Source: Candidatus Pelagibacter ubique HIMB058 (GTDB lineage: Bacteria; Pseudomonadota; Alphaproteobacteria; Pelagibacterales; Pelagibacteraceae). From it: a stretch of 64,000 nt of DNA. Each line of letters opens with the position of its first letter. Within the stretch, counting starts at the first letter, position 1. Of the stretch, positions 2-13,306 are shown piece after piece. Position numbers and translations under genes: made by a program. The notes beneath the pieces were generated by a model, which was given only the letters and a program-made list of their open reading frames with translations, ran no database searches and was not told where the DNA came from. Where the stretch lies: assembly GCA_000419545.1 (NCBI GenBank), contig ATTF01000001.1, positions 28,663-92,662 on the forward strand, given 5' to 3'.

Positions 2-1129
2 GATTTATTTGTAAACTACGATGTATCAGACGATGATGCTATATGGGATCCTTCAGCAAATAACGTTCCTAGTGCTAGAATTGCTATCACAACAAATTAT
101 ATCGAAGATGAAGATAGTTTTAGTTGGGATACCACTATGGCAACAAATTTAAGTTTAGCAGTTGAGTTCAATGAAGATGTTGGTGTTTTGGAAATAGATG
201 GGACAGCTACTGCACAGGAATATCAAGACTTTTTAAGAACTGTGCGTTATGTAAATTTAGTCGATGATCAAGATGACAGAACAACAGTCAGCGGTGATGA
301 TAGATCGATTCAACTCGCATTAGGAATGCCGGGGTTATGTGCTGATTTAATACCAAGAGAAGTCGGAGGTGTAAGACATTTTTATTGTTACACTCAAGAT
401 ACCACTAGCGGAAGAGGTGCACTTAATGGTGGAGGGACTGGCGCTACCCTACAAGGAAATTCTTTATGGTGGGGTCAAGCCGAACTAAGAGCAGAAGCTT
501 CTCGGTATTATAATTTGATGGGCTACCTAGCAACGATTACTAGTGAAGCTGAAAATGATTATATCTTAGACAAAATTAGAGATGGAGATGGAAATCCTAT
601 CGCAGCCTGGTTTGGTGGTTCTGATATGAGAGATACTACTGATAGCGATGGAAACATGTTTACAGGAACTGAAGGTGTTTGGCGATGGGTTGGAGGACCT
701 GAAGAAGGAAACATATTTTTTACTACGGCAACAGATGATGGCATAACAGACGGTTGGACGAGCTGGAGAACTGGAGAGCCAAATGATTGTTGCAATGATA
801 TTCACGGAGTAACATATAACAACACAAACCTAGAAACAAACGAACACTATCCTGCTGAGTCAGGAGAACATTATGCTCAGTTTAGCAATAATCAAAATGG
901 AGGTTGGTGGAATGATTTATTTTTACCTGGTGTAACCTACTCTCCTTTTACCACATTAGGTTATGCACTTGAGTTTAGCAGTAATTTTGCTGAACAACAG
1001 CTCTGTAGTAATGCTACAACAGCAAATCAAAGAGCATGTGTTAATTACTGGGCTGAATTTGGTGTTGTAATAGATGATACTACCTATCAAGATCCAAACA
1101 TGTTAGATATATGCCTACCAGACGTATGA
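2..1129 (+). CDS. C-type lectin-like domain protein, C-terminal part (5' end outside window), preceded by a cadherin/hemagglutinin-type repeat fragment
   Basis: Frame is open from base 2, upstream of the listed ATG at 137. CTLD-like motifs: ATITSEAENDYI, AWFGGSD, GVWRWVGGPEEG, WTSWRTGEPND, GGWWNDL. N-terminal FNEDVGVLEIDGTATAQEYQDFLRTVRYVN resembles repeat modules of large adhesins. Confidence 0.75.
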   Translation, partial: DLFVNYDVSDDDAIWDPSANNVPSARIAITTNYIEDEDSFSWDTTMATNLSLAVEFNEDVGVLEIDGTATAQEYQDFLRTVRYVNLVDDQDDRTTVSGDDRSIQLALGMPGLCADLIPREVGGVRHFYCYTQDTTSGRGALNGGGTGATLQGNSLWWGQAELRAEASRYYNLMGYLATITSEAENDYILDKIRDGDGNPIAAWFGGSDMRDTTDSDGNMFTGTEGVWRWVGGPEEGNIFFTTATDDGITDGWTSWRTGEPNDCCNDIHGVTYNNTNLETNEHYPAESGEHYAQFSNNQNGGWWNDLFLPGVTYSPFTTLGYALEFSSNFAEQQLCSNATTANQRACVNYWAEFGVVIDDTTYQDPNMLDICLPDV

Positions 1130-1781: not shown

Positions 1782-2774
1782 TTGTCTCTACAAGATAAAA
1801 TATCAACCTATACCGGCCAACACGATTTATCAGACTTTCATATAAGATCTAATCAACCTATGGCAATGAGAATTCATGGTGACGTTCATGTTTTCGAAGA
1901 TGATTTAATTTCAAGAAAAGATATTGAACTTTTTTGGAAATCAACTCTTAATAATGAACAATTAAAAGAGGTAGTTAGGACAAGAGATTTAGATTACGCC
2001 GTACAAATTGGAGATTATCGGTTCAGGGTAAATGCTTATTACTCTAGTTACGGTCCATCAATGGTGCTTAGAAAAATTGTTAGTGAAGTTCCTCAAATGG
2101 AAAAGCTTGGTTTACCACAAGCTGTTCATGAAGCGATTAAGTTTAAAACCGGTTTAGTATTAGTAACAGGACAAACAGGATCAGGAAAATCTACATCTCT
2201 TGCGGCAATGATTGATCAAATTAATTCTAATAGATCAGAAAATATTATTACGATTGAAGATCCTATCGAATTTATTCATACAGGTAAAAAAAGTATTCTT
2301 TCACAGCGAGAAGTTGGTAAAGATACGAAATCATTTGCTCGTGCTTTAAAATCAGCACTAAGACAAGACCCAGATGTAATTCTTGTGGGTGAGATGCGTG
2401 ATCTTGAAACTGTTTCTTTAGCACTAACTGCAGCAGAAACAGGGCACTTAGTATTTGGAACGCTGCACGCTAGCGGCGCAGCGTCTACCGTAACCAGAAT
2501 ATTGGACGTCTTTCCATCTGAACAAAAGCCATTAGCTCAAGCGATGTTAGCTGGTTCTATTCGAATGGTTTTATCACAACAATTATTAAAGAAAAAAGGT
2601 GGTGGTAGAATTGGTTGTTTTGAAGTTATGACAGGTTCAAGTGCGATTAGAAGTTTAATTCGTGAAGGAAAAATGGCTTCAATAACATCTACACTTCAAA
2701 CTTCTGGTAAGGAAGGCATGATTACCATGGAAAAATACCATGAAGGGCTTAAAGAAAAAGGATTAATCGATTAG
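1782..2774 (+). CDS. pilT: type IV pilus retraction ATPase PilT/PilU family (TTG start)
   Basis: Walker A GQTGSGKST, DPDVILVGEMRDLET, TAAETGHLVFGTLHASGAASTVTRILDVFP; typical PilT/PilU motifs. Confidence 0.92.
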   Translation: MSLQDKISTYTGQHDLSDFHIRSNQPMAMRIHGDVHVFEDDLISRKDIELFWKSTLNNEQLKEVVRTRDLDYAVQIGDYRFRVNAYYSSYGPSMVLRKIVSEVPQMEKLGLPQAVHEAIKFKTGLVLVTGQTGSGKSTSLAAMIDQINSNRSENIITIEDPIEFIHTGKKSILSQREVGKDTKSFARALKSALRQDPDVILVGEMRDLETVSLALTAAETGHLVFGTLHASGAASTVTRILDVFPSEQKPLAQAMLAGSIRMVLSQQLLKKKGGGRIGCFEVMTGSSAIRSLIREGKMASITSTLQTSGKEGMITMEKYHEGLKEKGLID

Positions 2775-5700
2775 TTCTTTGGTTTTTTAATTTTCTTAAT
2801 TAATTTTAAAATTTGTTTTTCACCTATTTCATAAATATCAAAAATTTTATGAGGTAATGTCTTTTCTGATTTAATAAATGTTTTAAATTTTTCATTTAAG
2901 AAAAATATTTTTGATAAAATTTTATTTACTTCATCTATAAATTTACTTGATTTTAATTCAGGTGAATTATTATTTTTAATATATATTTTAATTTTTTGCT
3001 GAATAATGAAAAACCTAGCCAAAATTTTGTTTATAAATTCTTTAAAGTTAAATTCTTTTTTCTCTTCATTTATTTTTTTATTCCATGATAGGTTAATTTT
3101 TCTATTCCATTCGATGTTTTTAATTGATCTTAAGAAATTTAAAAATCCAATTGAAGTTGATTTTTGAATTGGTTGTTGTGGTAATCTGCTGTTAATTTCA
3201 AATCCTCTAACTATTCCTTTTCTAATGAATTCATAAACTAATATCATTCCTGCAAGTAGTGTGATGAATGGTAAATAAACAAGTAACCATAAATATCCTT
3301 TGATAAACGTATCGAAGAAAGTAGTTTCGGACTTTTGAATATCTAAAAGTCTGTTAGAAACTAACTGTATCTGATCTGAAGATAAATCTTTACATTTAGT
3401 TAATAATTCCATTAGTTGTGGTCTTGTAAAATTAGCTAATCCAACTGACCAAGCATCTCTATAATACTGATCGCAATCTACTCTATTATCATTATAAGAT
3501 TTTGGAGTAGCTTTTTTAACTAAAGCTTTTGGAGATTTTTTTTCCATTTGTTTCTTTTCCTCTACTAAAGTATCAATTTTAGGAAACACTGACTCAAAAT
3601 CTTTTTTCTTCTCAGGTTTTTTAGCGATAACTGGTGGGATTTTAGTTTTAGCAAAATCACCAAAGAATTTTCTAAATGTCAAAGAAAATACATTTGAGTC
3701 TTGATCGTTTTCAGTATTTTCCGAGATGAAGTAACTTGCTATTAAATTAGTTTTATTTGATGGGTTGTAATAATTGTATCCAAAACCTGCTGATAAAAAA
3801 GTTTCTTCGTCTCTAGGTAATTCGTTTGTAAAAGGATCAGAATTTGCATATTTAGCTTCAGCTGTAGTTCCATCAATATAATGTTCTCTGCTTCCTATTA
3901 AAGAAAAGTTTAATTGATTTATAGCTTCATTTGACTGGGTAAAGTTTCTATCAAAAGAAATTCCAACTTCAGGTTTTAAAGCTATTAAATCATTACTATC
4001 AACTGTTAGAGCTAAGCCTCCCCCGCTTTCTTTAAAATCATCTTTAATATCATATGATCCTTTTAAACCTACTGAAGGAGATATGCCCCATCCATTGAAA
4101 TTAAATGTTTTAGATATTTGTGATGAAGCAAAAATACCAAAATCTGTAGTATTTGATTTATAAGTATCACTTACTGAAGATCCTGACACAATTACATTTC
4201 TCTTAGAGTCGGTTTCTGTAACATGTCCACCAATTACAATGTTGTAATCAAATTCATCTGTTGATGCTTGTTTAAATGTACTGAAATGTGCTGCTAAACT
4301 TCTAGAGTCACCGTGGTTTTCATTATAATCCGCTTCGGACCTAGTAAATCCGTACGAAAAACCTGAGTAATTTTTATCGTCGTGTCTGTATTGCTGTCCG
4401 TATAAAATTCCAAATGTATCATTTGAAAATCCTGTATGAGTATCAGTAATATTATCTGAGTTATAATTTGATCCAAAAGTTCTAACAAAAACTGCCTTAT
4501 CTTTATTTTCTTTATCTGGAATTAAATTTTTAAATATTGTTCTATTTTTATTATTCTTTAAAAATCCTAGTACTGATTGATCTGAATAATCATAATATTC
4601 AGCAAATTTATTTCTATCACCGTATAGACCACTTTCTTGAAGATCAGCTAAGGTTAAATTTTGTGAAAAATTTCTTGTTAAATTTCCAACTCTTGAAGTT
4701 GCTCCCATTGTTGTAACATTAGTTAATGCTTGTTGGAAACTAGCATGAACATTTTTTGAAACTGGAATAGTTGATGATAAAACTGTTCCTTTCGTTTTTC
4801 TTAAATCTTTATTAACTTCTGCAGTTGTTTTTGTTATTAATGCATCTGCAACACTTTTCAATGAACCAGAAGTAGCTGCATCTAAGATTTTTGCGTGAGA
4901 TTTAAATTTATTTTGATTTGTTTTTGTTTCTACAGTATCTGTTTGTTCAGTAAGTTTTAACGACGCAATATGATTAACATTATCATAAACAATAGAAGCA
5001 GAGAAACCACTTATAAATGTACTATTGGAAACTGAAACAGTAGAAAAGGTTCCAGTCATGGCTCCACCAGTTATTATTTGTCTTGTGAAAGCTGAATATG
5101 TACCACTAACTGGTTCTAAGACTATTGTACCGTCTATGTTTGCTGTGCCTGTTACAAGTATTTGATCGTTTGCTGTTGGGCTAAATTCAATTGTAGTAGT
5201 AGAGTTAGAAGCTAAAATCATATCACCACCAACGTTTAACGTTCCAATACTGTTTCCAGGCTTTAATGCACCTCCGTTAGTTACATCAAGTAAAGAAGAA
5301 ATAGTTCCTGCACCTACTAGAGTACCACCGCTATTAACAGTAACTTGACCAGTAATATCTAGACCACCTGGATTTGTAATAGATCCAGTTAATTGCAAAT
5401 CTCCAACTGCTGCTAATTCATTACCACCCGCATCTATACCGCTATTAAACGCAATTGTTTTTCCACTTCCTGTCGTAAAAGTTCGATCTCCTCCACTTAG
5501 AGTAACAGCTCCAGTATAAGTTTGATGACTTGTAGTAGTTACGTCAGCGCCAATATTTGCTGTTCTCCCAATATTAAATTCTTTAGCATTAGTTACTGCT
5601 CCATCTAAATCAACATCACCTGCTAATAATAAATCTTGGCCGTTGGCATCTACAGTTGAACCAAAAGTAAATGAATTTGAAGAACCAACTTGAAACAGAC

Positions 5701-7966
5701 CAGTTGAGCTTCCGCTATAAGTAAAGGCTCCAGTATAAGTTTGATCGCCTGTAGTTGTAATTGCTGTTGCGGTATCAGTTGTTCCTGAAACACTTAAAGA
5801 ATTAAGTCCAGTCATTGCTGCGTTAGAGTCTAAATTACCTGTTATAGTTAAAGCATTTGAACCACCGGTTACTGTGTTATTAAAAGTTACAGTTGAGCCA
5901 GTTAAAGTTCTATCTCCACCGCTTAAAGTAGTTGCTCCAACAAAAAGCTGTGTTGAATTAGAAGTTATATCTCCCCCTAAATTAGATGTGCCTGATACCC
6001 TAACCCCACCTAGCGATGATGCGTCACCATCTAAATCTAAATTTCCTGTTATAGTCATAGCATTAGATCCACCGCTGATAGCATTAAGATTTATTGTAGA
6101 ACCTTGTAAAACAACAGCGGTGCTAAGCGTTGTAGTATCTGAAAAAGTTTGATTTCCTGTTGTTGTAACATTTCCTCCAAGATCTGAAGTTCCAGATACA
6201 TCTACCGAAGATGCGCCAATAATTGCTGCATTTAGGTCTAGATTTCCAGTGATATTTATTGATCCTAATGCGTTAGTGGCACCCACAGCATTACCAAACT
6301 GTACATCGCCAGTTCCAGAGTTAATTGTCAGGTCTCTGGTAGTGCTATCTGAATTCACAGTACCACTAAAAACCACATTAGAATTTGTTGTTGTTAGAGT
6401 GTTAGAGGCACTTAAGATAGTATTTCCAGTATAAGTTTGCGTGTTTGTTGTTGTTACATTAGCTCCAATATTTGAAGCTTGTGAAATACTTAAAGATGAT
6501 GCATCAGCTATATTAGCATCTAGATCTAATGCACCTGATACAGATATATCACCCACACCGTTAGTACCACCAACTATTCCGGAAAATAAAACCTCATCAC
6601 CAGCGTTATTAATTGTTATATCTCTTCTAGTAGAGTCGTTTGAATTAACAGTGCTTCCAAAAGTTATCTTAGCACTATCTGTAGTAAAAATAGTATTACC
6701 TGATAATGAAGTTGCTCCACTATATGTTTGAGTGCCGTCAGTATTAATTGTTCCTACTAATGTACTAGTTCCTGTAACGTTTAAAACAGCGTTAGTACTA
6801 TCAGCTGCGTTGTTTACAATACGATTACCAGTTCCTGCGCCTGTAATATTTAAACTTGCAATAGTTAAAGTTTTTTGTAAGTCCAACGTACCAGTGGCAG
6901 CAATAGTTAAACCACCTGTACCTAAATCTCCAAGTCCACCTACAATTATATTTCCAGCATTAATTGTTGTTCCACCATCATAACTACTGTCTGAGAGAAT
7001 ATTTAATGTACCGCTTCCTGCCTTCGTTAAAGAATAAGAATTAGATCCGTCAGTTAAAGCATTTGATTGGATACCAACGTTACTACTTGTGGTTATAGTT
7101 GTGTTTCCATTTAATGTAACTCCACCAGTTAAAATCATATTACCAGAATTTGTTGAGTCTCCTAACTCAACAGAACCAGATAAGAATAATGATTGAGATA
7201 AAGTTCTATCATCTGTGTTTCTACTTGATAGCTGTCCACCTGTCATAGTAATGGCAGCAGACCCTACAGCATTATTGTGACCTAGCTCTAACGTACCACC
7301 GGAAATAGTCGCCCCTCCATCTATAGAATTACTTGTTTGAATTTCTAAAGTTCCTGCTTGAACTTGAATTGGATTAGGGATGTTGCTTAAAGATCCTGAA
7401 AAAATTTGTTCTCCTGCCCCTTTTTTTATTAAAGTTGCGTCAGTGTCTCCGGATCCTTGACCTGTTATACTTGCTGCAGTGCTATAAGTGGATCCGCTAG
7501 CTACGTTTAATGTTAATTTGTTGTTATCAAAATTTACCTCCGGTGTTGAACTCAAATATTCTTTATCGTTAATCCCACCAATACTTTCATCACCATTAAA
7601 TAATTGAATATAAATTTGTCCTCCGTCATATAAATTTATTACTGTTCCACCAGGTAAACTACCACCTGAACCAACTGTTAAAGTTCCTTTAGAAAACTCG
7701 GTAGCACCGTTGTAACTGTTTGTGCCTTTTAGTGTTAGAGTTCCACTAGAGTTCCAACGAAAACCACCGGATCCTGATAGAACACCACTGATAGTAACAT
7801 TAGAACTTCCGGTAATAGTTAAAAGACCGCCAAGAGTATGATTACCACTACCTAAAGATGAAGAGTCTATAGACTCTGTTCCAAAACTATCTGCAAATAA
7901 TTTTGACTGGAAGAATAAAATTACAAAAAAAAATGCAATAATTGTTTTTTTAATTCTTAAAGGCAT
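2771..7966 (-). CDS. Autotransporter with beta-strand-rich repetitive passenger, autotransporter beta-domain and an additional C-terminal extension with a predicted transmembrane helix
   Basis: Signal-peptide-like N-terminus, many G/T/N/S-rich repeats (autotransporter-associated beta-strand type), C-terminal barrel ending ...NVFSLTFRKFFGDF, then ~295 further residues including FIKGYLWLLVYLPFITLLAGMILVYEFI and a Lys-rich tail. Confidence 0.85.
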   Translation of the reverse strand: MPLRIKKTIIAFFFVILFFQSKLFADSFGTESIDSSSLGSGNHTLGGLLTITGSSNVTISGVLSGSGGFRWNSSGTLTLKGTNSYNGATEFSKGTLTVGSGGSLPGGTVINLYDGGQIYIQLFNGDESIGGINDKEYLSSTPEVNFDNNKLTLNVASGSTYSTAASITGQGSGDTDATLIKKGAGEQIFSGSLSNIPNPIQVQAGTLEIQTSNSIDGGATISGGTLELGHNNAVGSAAITMTGGQLSSRNTDDRTLSQSLFLSGSVELGDSTNSGNMILTGGVTLNGNTTITTSSNVGIQSNALTDGSNSYSLTKAGSGTLNILSDSSYDGGTTINAGNIIVGGLGDLGTGGLTIAATGTLDLQKTLTIASLNITGAGTGNRIVNNAADSTNAVLNVTGTSTLVGTINTDGTQTYSGATSLSGNTIFTTDSAKITFGSTVNSNDSTRRDITINNAGDEVLFSGIVGGTNGVGDISVSGALDLDANIADASSLSISQASNIGANVTTTNTQTYTGNTILSASNTLTTTNSNVVFSGTVNSDSTTRDLTINSGTGDVQFGNAVGATNALGSINITGNLDLNAAIIGASSVDVSGTSDLGGNVTTTGNQTFSDTTTLSTAVVLQGSTINLNAISGGSNAMTITGNLDLDGDASSLGGVRVSGTSNLGGDITSNSTQLFVGATTLSGGDRTLTGSTVTFNNTVTGGSNALTITGNLDSNAAMTGLNSLSVSGTTDTATAITTTGDQTYTGAFTYSGSSTGLFQVGSSNSFTFGSTVDANGQDLLLAGDVDLDGAVTNAKEFNIGRTANIGADVTTTSHQTYTGAVTLSGGDRTFTTGSGKTIAFNSGIDAGGNELAAVGDLQLTGSITNPGGLDITGQVTVNSGGTLVGAGTISSLLDVTNGGALKPGNSIGTLNVGGDMILASNSTTTIEFSPTANDQILVTGTANIDGTIVLEPVSGTYSAFTRQIITGGAMTGTFSTVSVSNSTFISGFSASIVYDNVNHIASLKLTEQTDTVETKTNQNKFKSHAKILDAATSGSLKSVADALITKTTAEVNKDLRKTKGTVLSSTIPVSKNVHASFQQALTNVTTMGATSRVGNLTRNFSQNLTLADLQESGLYGDRNKFAEYYDYSDQSVLGFLKNNKNRTIFKNLIPDKENKDKAVFVRTFGSNYNSDNITDTHTGFSNDTFGILYGQQYRHDDKNYSGFSYGFTRSEADYNENHGDSRSLAAHFSTFKQASTDEFDYNIVIGGHVTETDSKRNVIVSGSSVSDTYKSNTTDFGIFASSQISKTFNFNGWGISPSVGLKGSYDIKDDFKESGGGLALTVDSNDLIALKPEVGISFDRNFTQSNEAINQLNFSLIGSREHYIDGTTAEAKYANSDPFTNELPRDEETFLSAGFGYNYYNPSNKTNLIASYFISENTENDQDSNVFSLTFRKFFGDFAKTKIPPVIAKKPEKKKDFESVFPKIDTLVEEKKQMEKKSPKALVKKATPKSYNDNRVDCDQYYRDAWSVGLANFTRPQLMELLTKCKDLSSDQIQLVSNRLLDIQKSETTFFDTFIKGYLWLLVYLPFITLLAGMILVYEFIRKGIVRGFEINSRLPQQPIQKSTSIGFLNFLRSIKNIEWNRKINLSWNKKINEEKKEFNFKEFINKILARFFIIQQKIKIYIKNNNSPELKSSKFIDEVNKILSKIFFLNEKFKTFIKSEKTLPHKIFDIYEIGEKQILKLIKKIKKPKN
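5340..6790 (-). repeat. About six imperfect 67-100-residue modules in the autotransporter passenger
   Basis: Repeated pattern (V/I)SGTxxLGxxxTTTxxQTYTGxxTLSGxxxxxTxxxxxTFxxTVxxGxxxLxITGxLDLxAxxxxxxSLxVS. Confidence 0.7.
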
Positions 7967-8030: not shown

Positions 8031-8621
8031 ATGTACGCAAAATTCAAAATTTTATTAACTTTCACTTTTTTCGCAGTACTCATGAGTCCAAAGTTTGGAT
8101 TTTCAGATGAAAAATTAGTAAAGGTTGAAAAATTTAAAGATTGGGGTTTGCAGTGCCCTACAAAAAATAATTGTGAAGTTATTCAATCATTAAAAGTAAA
8201 TGAAACAGATTTAAAATTTAATTTCATTTTTGGTAATTTTTTAAATAAAGACAAAAAGAAAAAAGAGATTTTTTCAATCGTTACTCCACTTGGAGTAAAT
8301 GTTCAAAAAAATCTTATGTTAAAATTTATTAAAATTGAAAAAAAATTAGTAGGAAAAGAGAGTAAAGAAAATATAAAAGTTTTAGCAGTCTACAGAATTC
8401 CTTTTTTAAAATGTGAGGTAATAGGTTGTATTGTTTCTGTCAACAATGACACAAATAATAAAAAGCAAAACGAATTGTTTGCCTTGATAAAGAAAGGGAT
8501 GACAGAACAAAATAATTTTCAAATTATTATTCAAGGTTTTGGAAGACCGTTCATTGTTAATTCCTCTTTAGCTGGTTTTGGTGCTGCAGTTAAAGAAATG
8601 GAAAAAAGAAACAAATCTTAA
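8031..8621 (+). CDS. Invasion-associated locus B (IalB) family periplasmic protein
   Basis: Signal peptide; KVEKFKDWGLQCPTKNNCEVIQSL...SIVTPLGVNVQKNLMLKF resembles IalB family. Confidence 0.7.
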   Translation: MYAKFKILLTFTFFAVLMSPKFGFSDEKLVKVEKFKDWGLQCPTKNNCEVIQSLKVNETDLKFNFIFGNFLNKDKKKKEIFSIVTPLGVNVQKNLMLKFIKIEKKLVGKESKENIKVLAVYRIPFLKCEVIGCIVSVNNDTNNKKQNELFALIKKGMTEQNNFQIIIQGFGRPFIVNSSLAGFGAAVKEMEKRNKS

Positions 8622-9709: not shown

Positions 9710-10588
9710 ATGATTGATAACTTAATCAATAGCATCTCAAAAGTAGTTATAGGAAATAAAGACAAGATCAAACTTGTTTTAGCTTCAATTATTTCTGAAG
9801 GGAGCATCCTTATAGAAGATTATCCAGGCACAGGTAAAACGACTTTAGCAAAAGCAATAACTGAAAGTTTAAAATTAGATTTTAGAAGAGTTCAATTCAC
9901 TTCTGATTTATTACCAAGTGATATTTTAGGTTTTAATATGTACAAAGGGACAAAGCCATTTTTTCAAAAAGGTCCTATCTTTACTAATATTGTACTAGCG
10001 GATGAGCTAAATAGAGGAAGTCCAAAATCACAAAGTGCATTTATGGAAGCTATGGAAGAAAAGAGTGTCACAATTGATGGAAAAACATATGACCTCCCTA
10101 CTCCATTTTTTGTCATCGCAACTCAAAATCCGATGGACACTGCGGGAACTAGTTTATTACCAGACTCTCAATTAGATCGGTTCATGGTCTCTTTTTCTTT
10201 AAGTGATTTAGATGATGATAACAAAATTAAAATGTTAAAAAATAAAGAGAAAATTTCAAAATCTACTCAAAAACTAAGCCTTAAAAAATTAAAAGAAACT
10301 AAAGAAAAAGTTCATGTTGCGGATACGATATATAATTATCTAATTGAAATTGAAAAAAAGACAAAAGAACTTAATCAAAATATTCACCTTTCTGCTAGAT
10401 GTTTAAAACAAATAATCGATTTATCTAAAGGTTGGGCTGTAATTAATGAAAAAGACTATGTAACTCACCAAGATGTAAAAGATTTACTTCCATATGTTTT
10501 ACGACACAGAATTAATTTTTTAAAACCTGAAGAGAAAATTGAGTTCATTAATTCCGAAATTTTAAGCAAAATAGAAATTGAAAAATGA
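9710..10588 (+). CDS. MoxR family AAA ATPase
   Basis: EDYPGTGKTTLAKAI, ADELNRGSPKSQSAFMEAMEEKSVTIDGKTYDLPTPFFVIATQNPMD, LDRFM. Confidence 0.93.
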   Translation: MIDNLINSISKVVIGNKDKIKLVLASIISEGSILIEDYPGTGKTTLAKAITESLKLDFRRVQFTSDLLPSDILGFNMYKGTKPFFQKGPIFTNIVLADELNRGSPKSQSAFMEAMEEKSVTIDGKTYDLPTPFFVIATQNPMDTAGTSLLPDSQLDRFMVSFSLSDLDDDNKIKMLKNKEKISKSTQKLSLKKLKETKEKVHVADTIYNYLIEIEKKTKELNQNIHLSARCLKQIIDLSKGWAVINEKDYVTHQDVKDLLPYVLRHRINFLKPEEKIEFINSEILSKIEIEK

Positions 10589-11469
10589 GTTTTGCTTTAA
10601 ACTCTTTATTTAAAAACGAAAAAATCTATATTTATCCAAATCTTAAAGGCGTTTACTTAGGTTTATTTGTTAGCTTTTGTTTTCTAGCAGCTGTGTTTTA
10701 TCAAACTAACTTCGCATTAGTTTTGTCTATAGTTATTTTTTTTGTTTTCTTTATTTCAATTTTAATTTCCCATCAAAATATTAGAAACATTGAGAACGTA
10801 GAAATAGAAGAATACATTGAAGAGGGAAAATCTTCTTATATTTCAATTAATTTTAAAAATATTAAAAATGAGAAAAAAATAAACCTAGATATAGAATTAG
10901 ATAGTCAAGAGATCGGAAACTTTAATTTTTTAAAAACATTGAATGAAATAAAAGTTAAGAAAGTTTTTAATGATAGAGGTATAAAACAAATATCTAATCT
11001 TGTTATTAAATCTGATTTTCCATTTGGGGTAATAAAAACTAAAAGATCAATTGAAATTAAAAACAAAATATTTGTCTATCCTAAGCCTATTCGACCATCT
11101 GAAAACTTATTCATTAATCAAAATATACTTGATCGATTAAATAAAGATAATGAGTTTGATAATATTGATGAATTTAGACCAGGAGATAACTTATCTAAAG
11201 TAGCCTGGAAAAAAACTATTGCGCAAAATAAATTTTACGTAAAAAAGTTTAAAACTTACAAAAAAGAAGAGAAAATCATTATAGATCTAAATCAAAATTA
11301 TCACTATGACTTTGAAAAAATTCTAAACTTCTCCTCTTATTTAGTTTTGAATGCCAAACAAAATAATGTTGGTTTAATTTTAAAACATAAAAATAAAGAA
11401 TTTGTTTTAACTAATACAAAAACATCATTAAATGAAATTTTAAAATACCTTAGCTATGCTTCTCAATAA
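10585..11469 (+). CDS. DUF58 domain protein
   Basis: FDNIDEFRPGDNLSKVAWKKTIAQNKFYVKKF matches the DUF58 core (REYxPGDxxRxIxWxxxAR-like); overlaps moxR by 4 nt. Confidence 0.85.
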   Translation: MSFALNSLFKNEKIYIYPNLKGVYLGLFVSFCFLAAVFYQTNFALVLSIVIFFVFFISILISHQNIRNIENVEIEEYIEEGKSSYISINFKNIKNEKKINLDIELDSQEIGNFNFLKTLNEIKVKKVFNDRGIKQISNLVIKSDFPFGVIKTKRSIEIKNKIFVYPKPIRPSENLFINQNILDRLNKDNEFDNIDEFRPGDNLSKVAWKKTIAQNKFYVKKFKTYKKEEKIIIDLNQNYHYDFEKILNFSSYLVLNAKQNNVGLILKHKNKEFVLTNTKTSLNEILKYLSYASQ

Positions 11470-13306
11470 TAAAAAGTTTTTTGATTTAACCCATATTATT
11501 TTTACCTTAAGCCTTTTTTTGGTTTCAAGAAACTTACCTGATTTAAATATATTTTTTTGGATTATTCTCTACGTATTTGCATTAGTTCTTTATGTAAAAG
11601 ACTTAAAGGTAAATTTTATTATTTTATTTTTATTGCTTTGTGCATCTCTTTTTATTCAATTGTATTTTTTTGAGTTTGTCCTAGCTAAAGAGTTTTTTGT
11701 AAAAGTTATAGGAATTTTATTAATTTTTAGGTTTTTAAATATTAAAACAAAAAGTCATCTTTTTAGTTTTAATGTAATTTGTCTTTTTATTTGTGTTCTA
11801 AATTTAACTGAAAGCCAGGATTTAATTAACTCTTTGCTATCAACAGTTTTATTAATTTTAACCATTTCTAATTTTTATCTATCAAATCAAACTACATTAA
11901 TTGAAATGGATTTAAAAAATATGATTAAATATCTTGGTTTTGGATTAGGATTAATTCCGGTAATAGCTATTTTTTATTTAATTATCCCAAGAACGGACAT
12001 AACCCTTAATCTATTTAATACGTCTAAAAATAATTTAGGTATTCCAGATAGTATTAACCTTGGAAGCTTTGAGCAGATATCTGAGTCTGATGAAAAACTA
12101 TTTGTTTTGATTAATGATAATTTCAAAAAGAATGAGCTTTATTTTAGAGTAAAAGTTTTTGATCAAATTGATAACAAAAAATCTTGGAGACCTTCTTCTG
12201 GTTATTATTTAATAAGAAAGTTTCCAAATTCTATCCAAACATTAAATTTCACGCCTCAAAATAGGATGTATAACTTAATAATTGAAAATTATAAGAATAG
12301 TTGGCTTCCCGTTCTAAAAAACACAACAATAGTCAGTGACCCACAGGATTATTCTTTTAGTATATTTAATCAAACTTACAGATCTAAAAAAGAAATTGAG
12401 AGCAAAAAGTTAATTCAGCTTAGAAAATATACAATTAACATGGAGTTAAACGATGGGCTTCGTCAATATTATTTGGATCTACCTAATTCTATTTCTTCTG
12501 AATTGAGGAAATGGGCAGATACTAATAAAAAAGGTAAAACAGATACTCAATATTTAAAACATATCTTAAATACATTTAATAAAGATGATTACTATTATTC
12601 TTTAAAGCCACCGATTAGTGAAAATATTAATGATTATTCTGACTTCTTTTTTAAAATAAAAGAGGGTTACTGTGAACATTACGCTGGAACATTTGTAATT
12701 TTAGCAAGATTAGCTGGCATTCCAGCAAGAATAGTCACAGGTTATCTTGGGGGTGAGTTAAATAGCGTTGGTGATTTCTATGAATTTAAACAGCAAGATG
12801 CTCATGCTTGGGTTGAGGTTTGGGATGGAGGTAAATGGATTGAGTATGATCCTACTTTAGCTATTCCACCAAACAAAGTAAAAACTACTCTTAATCAAAT
12901 CTTAAAAGAAAATTCGGAAGATAATTTCAGAATAGGTACAAGCTTATTTAAAGATTTTTCTAATTATATCAGCTATCTTGATTTTGTTTGGACAAAAAGT
13001 TTAATCAGTTACGATAAAAATAAACAAAAACAATTTATTCAAGATTTAAAATCATTAAAGATAAGTAAAAATATAATATTAATTTTTATACCTATTAGTT
13101 TATTTTTAATTATATTTTTTATATCAAAACTAACACCTAAAAATATTTATAAAATTAGATTTTACTTTGTTTTATTATTTTCAAAGAAAAAAGATAAAAT
13201 ACTTAACTCTGATACTTTAGATGAGGCTTTTAAAAAGCTTAAACCTGAGTCTCAACTTAAATATTTAGAATTTTTCAAAAAATACGAAAAAGTTCTATAT
13301 TCTTAA
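11456..13306 (+). CDS. TgpA-like membrane transglutaminase (DUF3488 + transglutaminase core)
   Basis: N-terminal multi-TM region; core EGYCEHYAGTFVILARLAGIPARIVTGYLGGE...DAHAWVEVWDGGKWIEYDPT with Cys-His-Asp triad; C-terminal TM. Confidence 0.9.
   Translation: MLLNNKKFFDLTHIIFTLSLFLVSRNLPDLNIFFWIILYVFALVLYVKDLKVNFIILFLLLCASLFIQLYFFEFVLAKEFFVKVIGILLIFRFLNIKTKSHLFSFNVICLFICVLNLTESQDLINSLLSTVLLILTISNFYLSNQTTLIEMDLKNMIKYLGFGLGLIPVIAIFYLIIPRTDITLNLFNTSKNNLGIPDSINLGSFEQISESDEKLFVLINDNFKKNELYFRVKVFDQIDNKKSWRPSSGYYLIRKFPNSIQTLNFTPQNRMYNLIIENYKNSWLPVLKNTTIVSDPQDYSFSIFNQTYRSKKEIESKKLIQLRKYTINMELNDGLRQYYLDLPNSISSELRKWADTNKKGKTDTQYLKHILNTFNKDDYYYSLKPPISENINDYSDFFFKIKEGYCEHYAGTFVILARLAGIPARIVTGYLGGELNSVGDFYEFKQQDAHAWVEVWDGGKWIEYDPTLAIPPNKVKTTLNQILKENSEDNFRIGTSLFKDFSNYISYLDFVWTKSLISYDKNKQKQFIQDLKSLKISKNIILIFIPISLFLIIFFISKLTPKNIYKIRFYFVLLFSKKKDKILNSDTLDEAFKKLKPESQLKYLEFFKKYEKVLYS

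Follow-up and report, generated by a model that had tools for sequence, protein, structure and literature searches.

Separate pathways sort barrels to the outer membrane and helices to the inner membrane. OmpA carries a periplasmic C-terminal extension after its outer-membrane barrel. The defining part of type Va autotransporters is a 12-stranded barrel at the C-terminus, which serves as the anchor (PMC6555100; PMC3419190), and Treponema FadL-like proteins have helical, presumably periplasmic C-terminal extensions after the barrel (PMC8407342). In Brucella, the gene for the trimeric autotransporter BatA has an ialB neighbor on the same strand (PMC7688925). The main text of a 2025 ISME J paper describes an "autotransporter adhesin" of ~5–9.5 kb that is nearly always found in coastal and missing from offshore genomes of Pelagibacteraceae; homologs were found in long reads, and its neighbors are always genes of type IV pili or of type II secretion (PMC12636525).

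The window analyzed here is a 64,000-nucleotide stretch of Candidatus Pelagibacter ubique HIMB058. It lies on a 92.7-kb contig of a 1.1-Mb genome that is 98% complete (G000). One of its genes encodes an autotransporter whose chain continues past the barrel into a tail with a hydrophobic helix. At a probability of about 0.58, the protein is best explained as an adhesin of autotransporter type Va whose C-terminal part anchors it in the inner membrane; it would form an uncleaved, one-chain trans-envelope tether and span both membranes.

Gene layout and end of the barrel

The ORF is one open frame of 1731 codons without breaks and encodes, in order, a putative signal peptide, a PATR beta-helix passenger, a type Va barrel, and the tail (Table 1). 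A search of the genome found no second PF03797 gene. By eye, the N-terminus has a K-rich start and a hydrophobic core in the window protein and most orthologs, and the first 60 residues of the window protein reach a maximum Kyte-Doolittle (KD) mean of 1.75 over 19 residues. The PF12951 match of the passenger is far stronger in the L096 ortholog (E 4.5e-77). The full PF03797 beta-domain spans residues 1159–1412 of the window protein and is also present in the barrels of all five intact orthologs.

Table 1. Features of the tailed gene and its neighbors. Coordinates are window positions unless a locus is named.
Feature	Coordinates	Strand	Evidence or remark
PilT-like ATPase, convergent, at the end of the type IV pilus cluster	1782–2774	+	4-nt overlap with tailed gene
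Tailed autotransporter ORF	2771–7966	-	1731 aa; stop 2771–2773; Pfam PF12951 and PF03797
Putative N-terminal signal peptide MPLRIKKTIIAFFFVILFFQSKLFA, residues 1–25	7892–7966	-	sequence inspection
Passenger with passenger-associated-transport repeats, residues 26–1155	4502–7891	-	PF12951, E 2.8e-8
12-stranded autotransporter beta-barrel, residues 1156–1435	3662–4501	-	PF03797, E 5.1e-26; 12 modeled strands
Conserved junction FGDFAKTKIPPVIAKK, residues 1435–1450, directly after last strand	3617–3664	-	7-genome alignment
Predicted periplasmic linker and small helical segment with Cys1498 and Cys1525, residues 1436–1555	3302–3661	-	model and orthologs
Predicted inner-membrane helix core LWLLVYLPFITLLAGMILV, residues 1559–1577	3236–3292	-	KD 2.40; pLDDT about 90
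Conserved basic segment after helix (YEFIRK...), residues 1578–1592	3191–3235	-	orthologs stop about here
Lineage-specific Lys/Asn/Ile-rich C-terminal extension, residues 1593–1731	2774–3190	-	absent from six orthologs
IalB-family protein, divergent neighbor	8031–8621	+	PF06776
AAA ATPase	L083 8089–8925; L084 8138–8974; L085 8386–9222; L096 11536–12372		

Four autotransporters of the same genus that lack the tail (G067, G029, G068, and G077) align with the window protein from about residue 950–1050 to exactly residue 1435, where they end in ...FTYNKKF. Chain end and barrel end coincide in 56 tail-less autotransporters of SAR11 and other Alphaproteobacteria, and 55 of these finish in F, Y, or W. 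The window protein lacks this type Va property of ending at the last barrel strand. An AlphaFold model of residues 1156–1731, built on a four-sequence alignment and of low confidence (mean pLDDT 42), has exactly 12 strands, the last at 1424–1433, followed by helices alone. Its barrel gave the autotransporters EstA, BrkA, EspP, and NalP as top PDB matches in Foldseek. The initial annotation had placed the barrel end near residue 1435 with ~295 residues to follow; the tail-less relatives, the 12-strand model, and Pfam bear this out, and the tail as a whole is residues 1436–1731 (window 2774–3661), 296 residues past the barrel. Apparent long extensions in loci L026, L029, and L134 were artefacts of locus truncation.

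Conservation of the tail

Genes encoding both barrel and tail occur in six further Pelagibacteraceae genomes, making seven in all across three genera or more. Four (G228, G230, G237, and G240) were found among 397 genomes of the order with the barrel end and tail as query; each is a single contig with 99–100% completeness. A GTDB scan with the barrel-and-tail alignment added single-cell genomes SCGC AAA797-I19 and AG-901-M14 and also returned G228, as MAG contig JALEGD010000001.1. G230, G237, G240, AAA797-I19, and AG-901-M14 have intact passenger-barrel-tail ORFs of 1784–2519 aa. In the G228 ortholog the barrel is interrupted by an in-frame stop codon (L082 12176–12935), which reflects either a pseudogene or a sequence error.

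A junction of the form FG[DEN]F[AG]K..(I/V)P stands right behind the last strand in all seven tails, with F, G, F, K, P, and V invariant. The order that follows is also common to all seven: a variable linker, a Cys pair, an L....L..IQ..E motif, the hydrophobic helix, YE[FI]IR, and a basic end. The Cys pair is spaced by 26–27 residues in six orthologs and by 11 in G228, and the distance from barrel to helix is 124–200 residues in six and 98 in G228. Tail pN/pS is 0.14–0.34, which indicates purifying selection; values are 0.14–0.20 among the three closest orthologs and 0.32 for G230/G240. The barrel is held more strictly, at 0.03–0.04 in the closest pairs and 0.17 for G230/G240. Because it is kept in six other genomes at low pN/pS, the tail is not a product of chance. 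The architecture and the conservation of the tail are almost certain, and the linker, two Cys residues, and strong hydrophobic helix that the initial annotation read after the barrel in one ORF are upheld by the uninterrupted frame and by fused orthologs in six other SAR11 genomes.

The Lys-rich C-terminal end is a different matter. Past the helix core, the orthologs continue for 13–18 residues and the window protein for 154, ~139 of them (1593–1731) unique. The conserved part of the tail ends near residue 1592. The remainder was seen in the window genome alone, has 17% GC and weaker coding statistics, and could for these reasons be a stop-loss product in the window lineage. The chance probability of 131 open codons at 17% GC composition is ~2e-7. 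The very Lys-rich C-terminus that had been described is therefore present in the ORF but private to the window lineage and absent from the six orthologs. Low-E matches to this end (E 0.003–0.02) were set aside as compositional.

These properties of residues 1593–1731 are what favors reading the whole fusion as an assembly error, a frameshift, or a recent stop-loss that joined an autotransporter to an unrelated gene. The same fusion, however, occurs in six independent genomes, three of them single-contig assemblies with intact ORFs; the tail is under purifying selection, and a stand-alone tail gene was not found. An artefact is very improbable for the fusion, and for residues 1436–1592 it is refuted by the orthologs in six other genomes and by purifying selection.

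The main rival to the tether is cleavage of the tail after assembly. The tail would then be a transient anchor that ties the giant chain to the inner membrane during folding of the barrel by BAM and is cut off near the FG.F.K..IP junction or in the flexible linker, leaving a normal outer-membrane autotransporter and a small inner-membrane protein. The strongly conserved junction beside a hypervariable, disordered linker would suit such a cut, as would the weaker constraint on the tail than on the barrel (pN/pS 0.14–0.20 versus 0.03–0.04 in the closest pairs). A pure leader, though, would not need the Cys-pair segment, the LI(A)xRLHxIQ motif, the helix, and YE.IRR, which are also conserved, and no protease partner was identified. 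We regard this reading as rather unlikely.

Distribution of the tail

The tail is present in 1 of 169 genomes of the genus of the window, in 5 of the 397 genomes sampled from the family (not counting a spurious match to adenylate kinase), and in 1 of 8 genomes of the genus of G228. Outside SAR11 it was not seen in a search of 142 genomes of the class Alphaproteobacteria. Tail-less PF03797 autotransporters are common: PF03797 is matched in 114 of 278 genomes of the family. No separate gene for the tail was found in the 169 genus or 397 family genomes. Although tail-less SAR11 autotransporters exist, the split-gene arrangement that would have refuted the initial annotation was not seen there. 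A weak match to the tail in G062 is adenylate kinase and not a separate tail gene.

The tail has no significant match in Pfam, NCBIfam, PHROGs, or PDB sequences and no OmpA-like or peptidoglycan-binding Pfam domain. The window tail alone, used as a pattern, gave no match in GTDB r220 or IMG/VR, because such scans seek exact short peptides only. The barrel-and-tail alignment then found loci L095–L097 in GTDB and nothing in IMG/VR.

Hydrophobic helix and predicted topology

Residues 1559–1577 have the highest KD mean in the protein, and the orthologs reach 1.80–2.42 at this position. Nothing in the passenger and barrel of the window protein exceeds 1.30, and no 19-residue window in the passengers or barrels of all tailed proteins exceeds 1.36. 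Among the tail-less controls, 1 of 56 barely exceeds 1.6 within its last 330 residues. AlphaFold modeled the tail alone (mean pLDDT 58) as ~61 unstructured residues, two short helices, and one long helix at model residues 96–159 (1530–1593), with a pLDDT of about 90 across its membrane part. The hydrophobic segment is thus predicted as a helix and not as a barrel strand. It likely lies in the inner membrane.

Within 20 residues of the helix, orthologs have 4–5 Lys/Arg on the C-terminal side versus 1–4 on the N-terminal side. The bias is moderate in the window protein, with 3 before the helix and 4 after. More Lys/Arg past the helix is in line with a cytoplasmic C-terminus. An even strand number and membership of the autotransporter family put the barrel C-terminus on the periplasmic side, so the intervening 124–200 residues (98 in G228) would be periplasmic. 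A stretch of 124–200 residues would be long enough to cross a periplasm of ordinary width. The trans-envelope topology proposed in the initial annotation is what we infer from the putative signal peptide, the periplasmic barrel end, the stop-transfer-like helix, and the Lys/Arg bias in most orthologs.

Alternatively, the helical tail may stay wholly in the periplasm, with its helix outside the inner membrane, and pack on the barrel mouth, oligomerize, or bind peptidoglycan. Periplasmic C-terminal extensions after outer-membrane barrels exist in OmpA and in Treponema FadL-like proteins (PMC8407342), and a Cys pair suits a periplasmic domain. Against this stand a KD of 1.8–2.4 over 19 residues in all seven tails followed by a basic cluster, as is typical of a membrane helix, and the lack of a peptidoglycan-binding Pfam domain in the tail. 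A wholly periplasmic tail is accordingly quite improbable.

Gene neighborhood

The pilus cluster of the window encodes a secretin, PilB- and PilC-like proteins, pilins, and a prepilin peptidase, together with STAS, anti-sigma-kinase-like, and SpoIIE proteins. Near the tailed gene, orthologous loci also carry genes for IalB, STAS, prepilin peptidase, and SpoIIE proteins, and a secretin gene lies within ~11–29 kb in 5 of 5 genomes tested. PilT adjoins the tailed gene in the window genome only. Its place is taken in the g12 and g13 loci by a small AAA ATPase gene, convergent with the tailed gene (Table 1). G000 has no close homolog of this ATPase, the best match being weak and to a different 640-aa ORF, so it is not a general partner.

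This context raises a more specific form of the tether, not exclusive of it: the tail could dock onto the pilus machine, at PilT or at another of its cytoplasmic or inner-membrane parts, placing the adhesin at the pilus apparatus or letting the apparatus move it. Pilus genes are adjacent in the window or within ~29 kb in 5 of 5 genomes tested, and the main text of PMC12636525 places its SAR11 adhesin gene beside pilus or type II secretion genes in every case. The adjacency of PilT in the window genome alone argues against docking, as does the AAA ATPase that replaces it in the g12 and g13 loci and is missing from G000. Docking is doubtful on this evidence.

An IalB-family gene is adjacent or 1–2 genes away in every locus read (the window and L082–L085, L096, and L097). 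Together with the ialB gene beside BatA in Brucella (PMC7688925), this suggests that IalB may have a periplasmic accessory role.

Other features were observed nearby. Upstream of the window on contig 1 of G000, L056 5067–7220 encodes an ammonium transporter fused to a SpoIIE-type phosphatase (PF00909 and PF07228); it lies near the STAS and anti-sigma-kinase-like genes and is a possible ammonium-sensing partner-switch input beside the pilus cluster. Window 2–1129, among the pilus genes, encodes a protein with a C-type-lectin-like stretch (GWTSWRTGEPNDCCN...), and the piece in the window has no Pfam match. Similar ORFs lie near other SAR11 pilus clusters (L057 15597–17723, L058 14415–16556, and L065 4576–5280). 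Judged by sequence, window 9710–13306 encodes a MoxR-like ATPase, a DUF58-like protein, and a transglutaminase-like membrane protein in series.

Proposed mechanism

In the tether reading, the signal peptide would start Sec export. The tail helix, translated last, would stop transfer and remain in the inner membrane, leaving the basic C-terminus in the cytoplasm. BAM would recognize the last strand (...SLTFRKFF) as an internal beta-signal and insert the barrel in the outer membrane, and the passenger would be displayed. The 61-residue flexible linker and the helical Cys-pair segment would cross the periplasm, and the neighboring periplasmic IalB is a possible assembly partner. The tether would most likely serve to hold a very large surface adhesin firmly in place, or to signal that it has engaged, in cells that produce type IV pili as well.

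Several points count against the tether. The variable linker could be cut, which would yield two distinct proteins. Mechanistically, it is unusual for a BAM substrate to carry a stop-transfer helix in its chain. Even within SAR11 the tail is rare, with a single carrier in its own genus, the G228 barrel has a stop, and the models are of low confidence.

Should each domain arrive in its own membrane, BAM would have to accept a substrate that is still anchored at the inner membrane, and a surface adhesin would gain direct mechanical or signaling access to the cytoplasm. The odds are about even that the tailed proteins are a new autotransporter subclass, in which one uncleaved chain would run from surface to cytoplasm and couple surface contact to the cytoplasm or the pilus machinery in SAR11. 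SAR11 bacteria are among the most abundant on Earth, and the tail may be an unreported feature of a gene by which coastal and offshore SAR11 appear to differ. Surveys that seek barrels only in the last ~300 residues (PMC3419190) could miss tailed proteins.

Comparison with known systems

According to the initial annotation, no standard autotransporter class is known to have this layout, and the literature searched holds no report of an autotransporter with an inner-membrane C-terminal helix. More broadly, the papers and searches here gave no single chain with both a barrel and an inner-membrane helix. Like the type Va proteins EspP, BrkA, EstA, pertactin, and AIDA-I, the tailed proteins have a beta-helix passenger with PATR repeats and a 12-stranded PF03797 barrel, preceded by a putative signal peptide. 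Unlike them, they continue past the barrel for ~150–240 conserved residues (130 in G228) that include an inner-membrane-type helix. They resemble OmpA and Treponema FadL-like proteins (PMC8407342) in that a periplasmic part follows the barrel in the chain, which makes the beta-signal internal. Those extensions, in contrast, have no described inner-membrane helix, and the SAR11 tail has no OmpA-like domain.

Brucella BatA (PMC7688925) is likewise encoded beside ialB as an autotransporter adhesin of an alphaproteobacterium. It differs from the SAR11 protein in being trimeric and in having ialB on the same strand, and the portion of that paper on BatA describes no inner-membrane tail. The main text of PMC12636525 mentions no tail beyond the barrel of the coastal adhesin, and the words "barrel" and "transmembrane" are absent from it. 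The tailed gene nevertheless shares with that adhesin, as described there, the family Pelagibacteraceae, the pilus context, and the size (orthologs are about 5.2–7.6 kb), and by this match of size and context it probably belongs to the same group.
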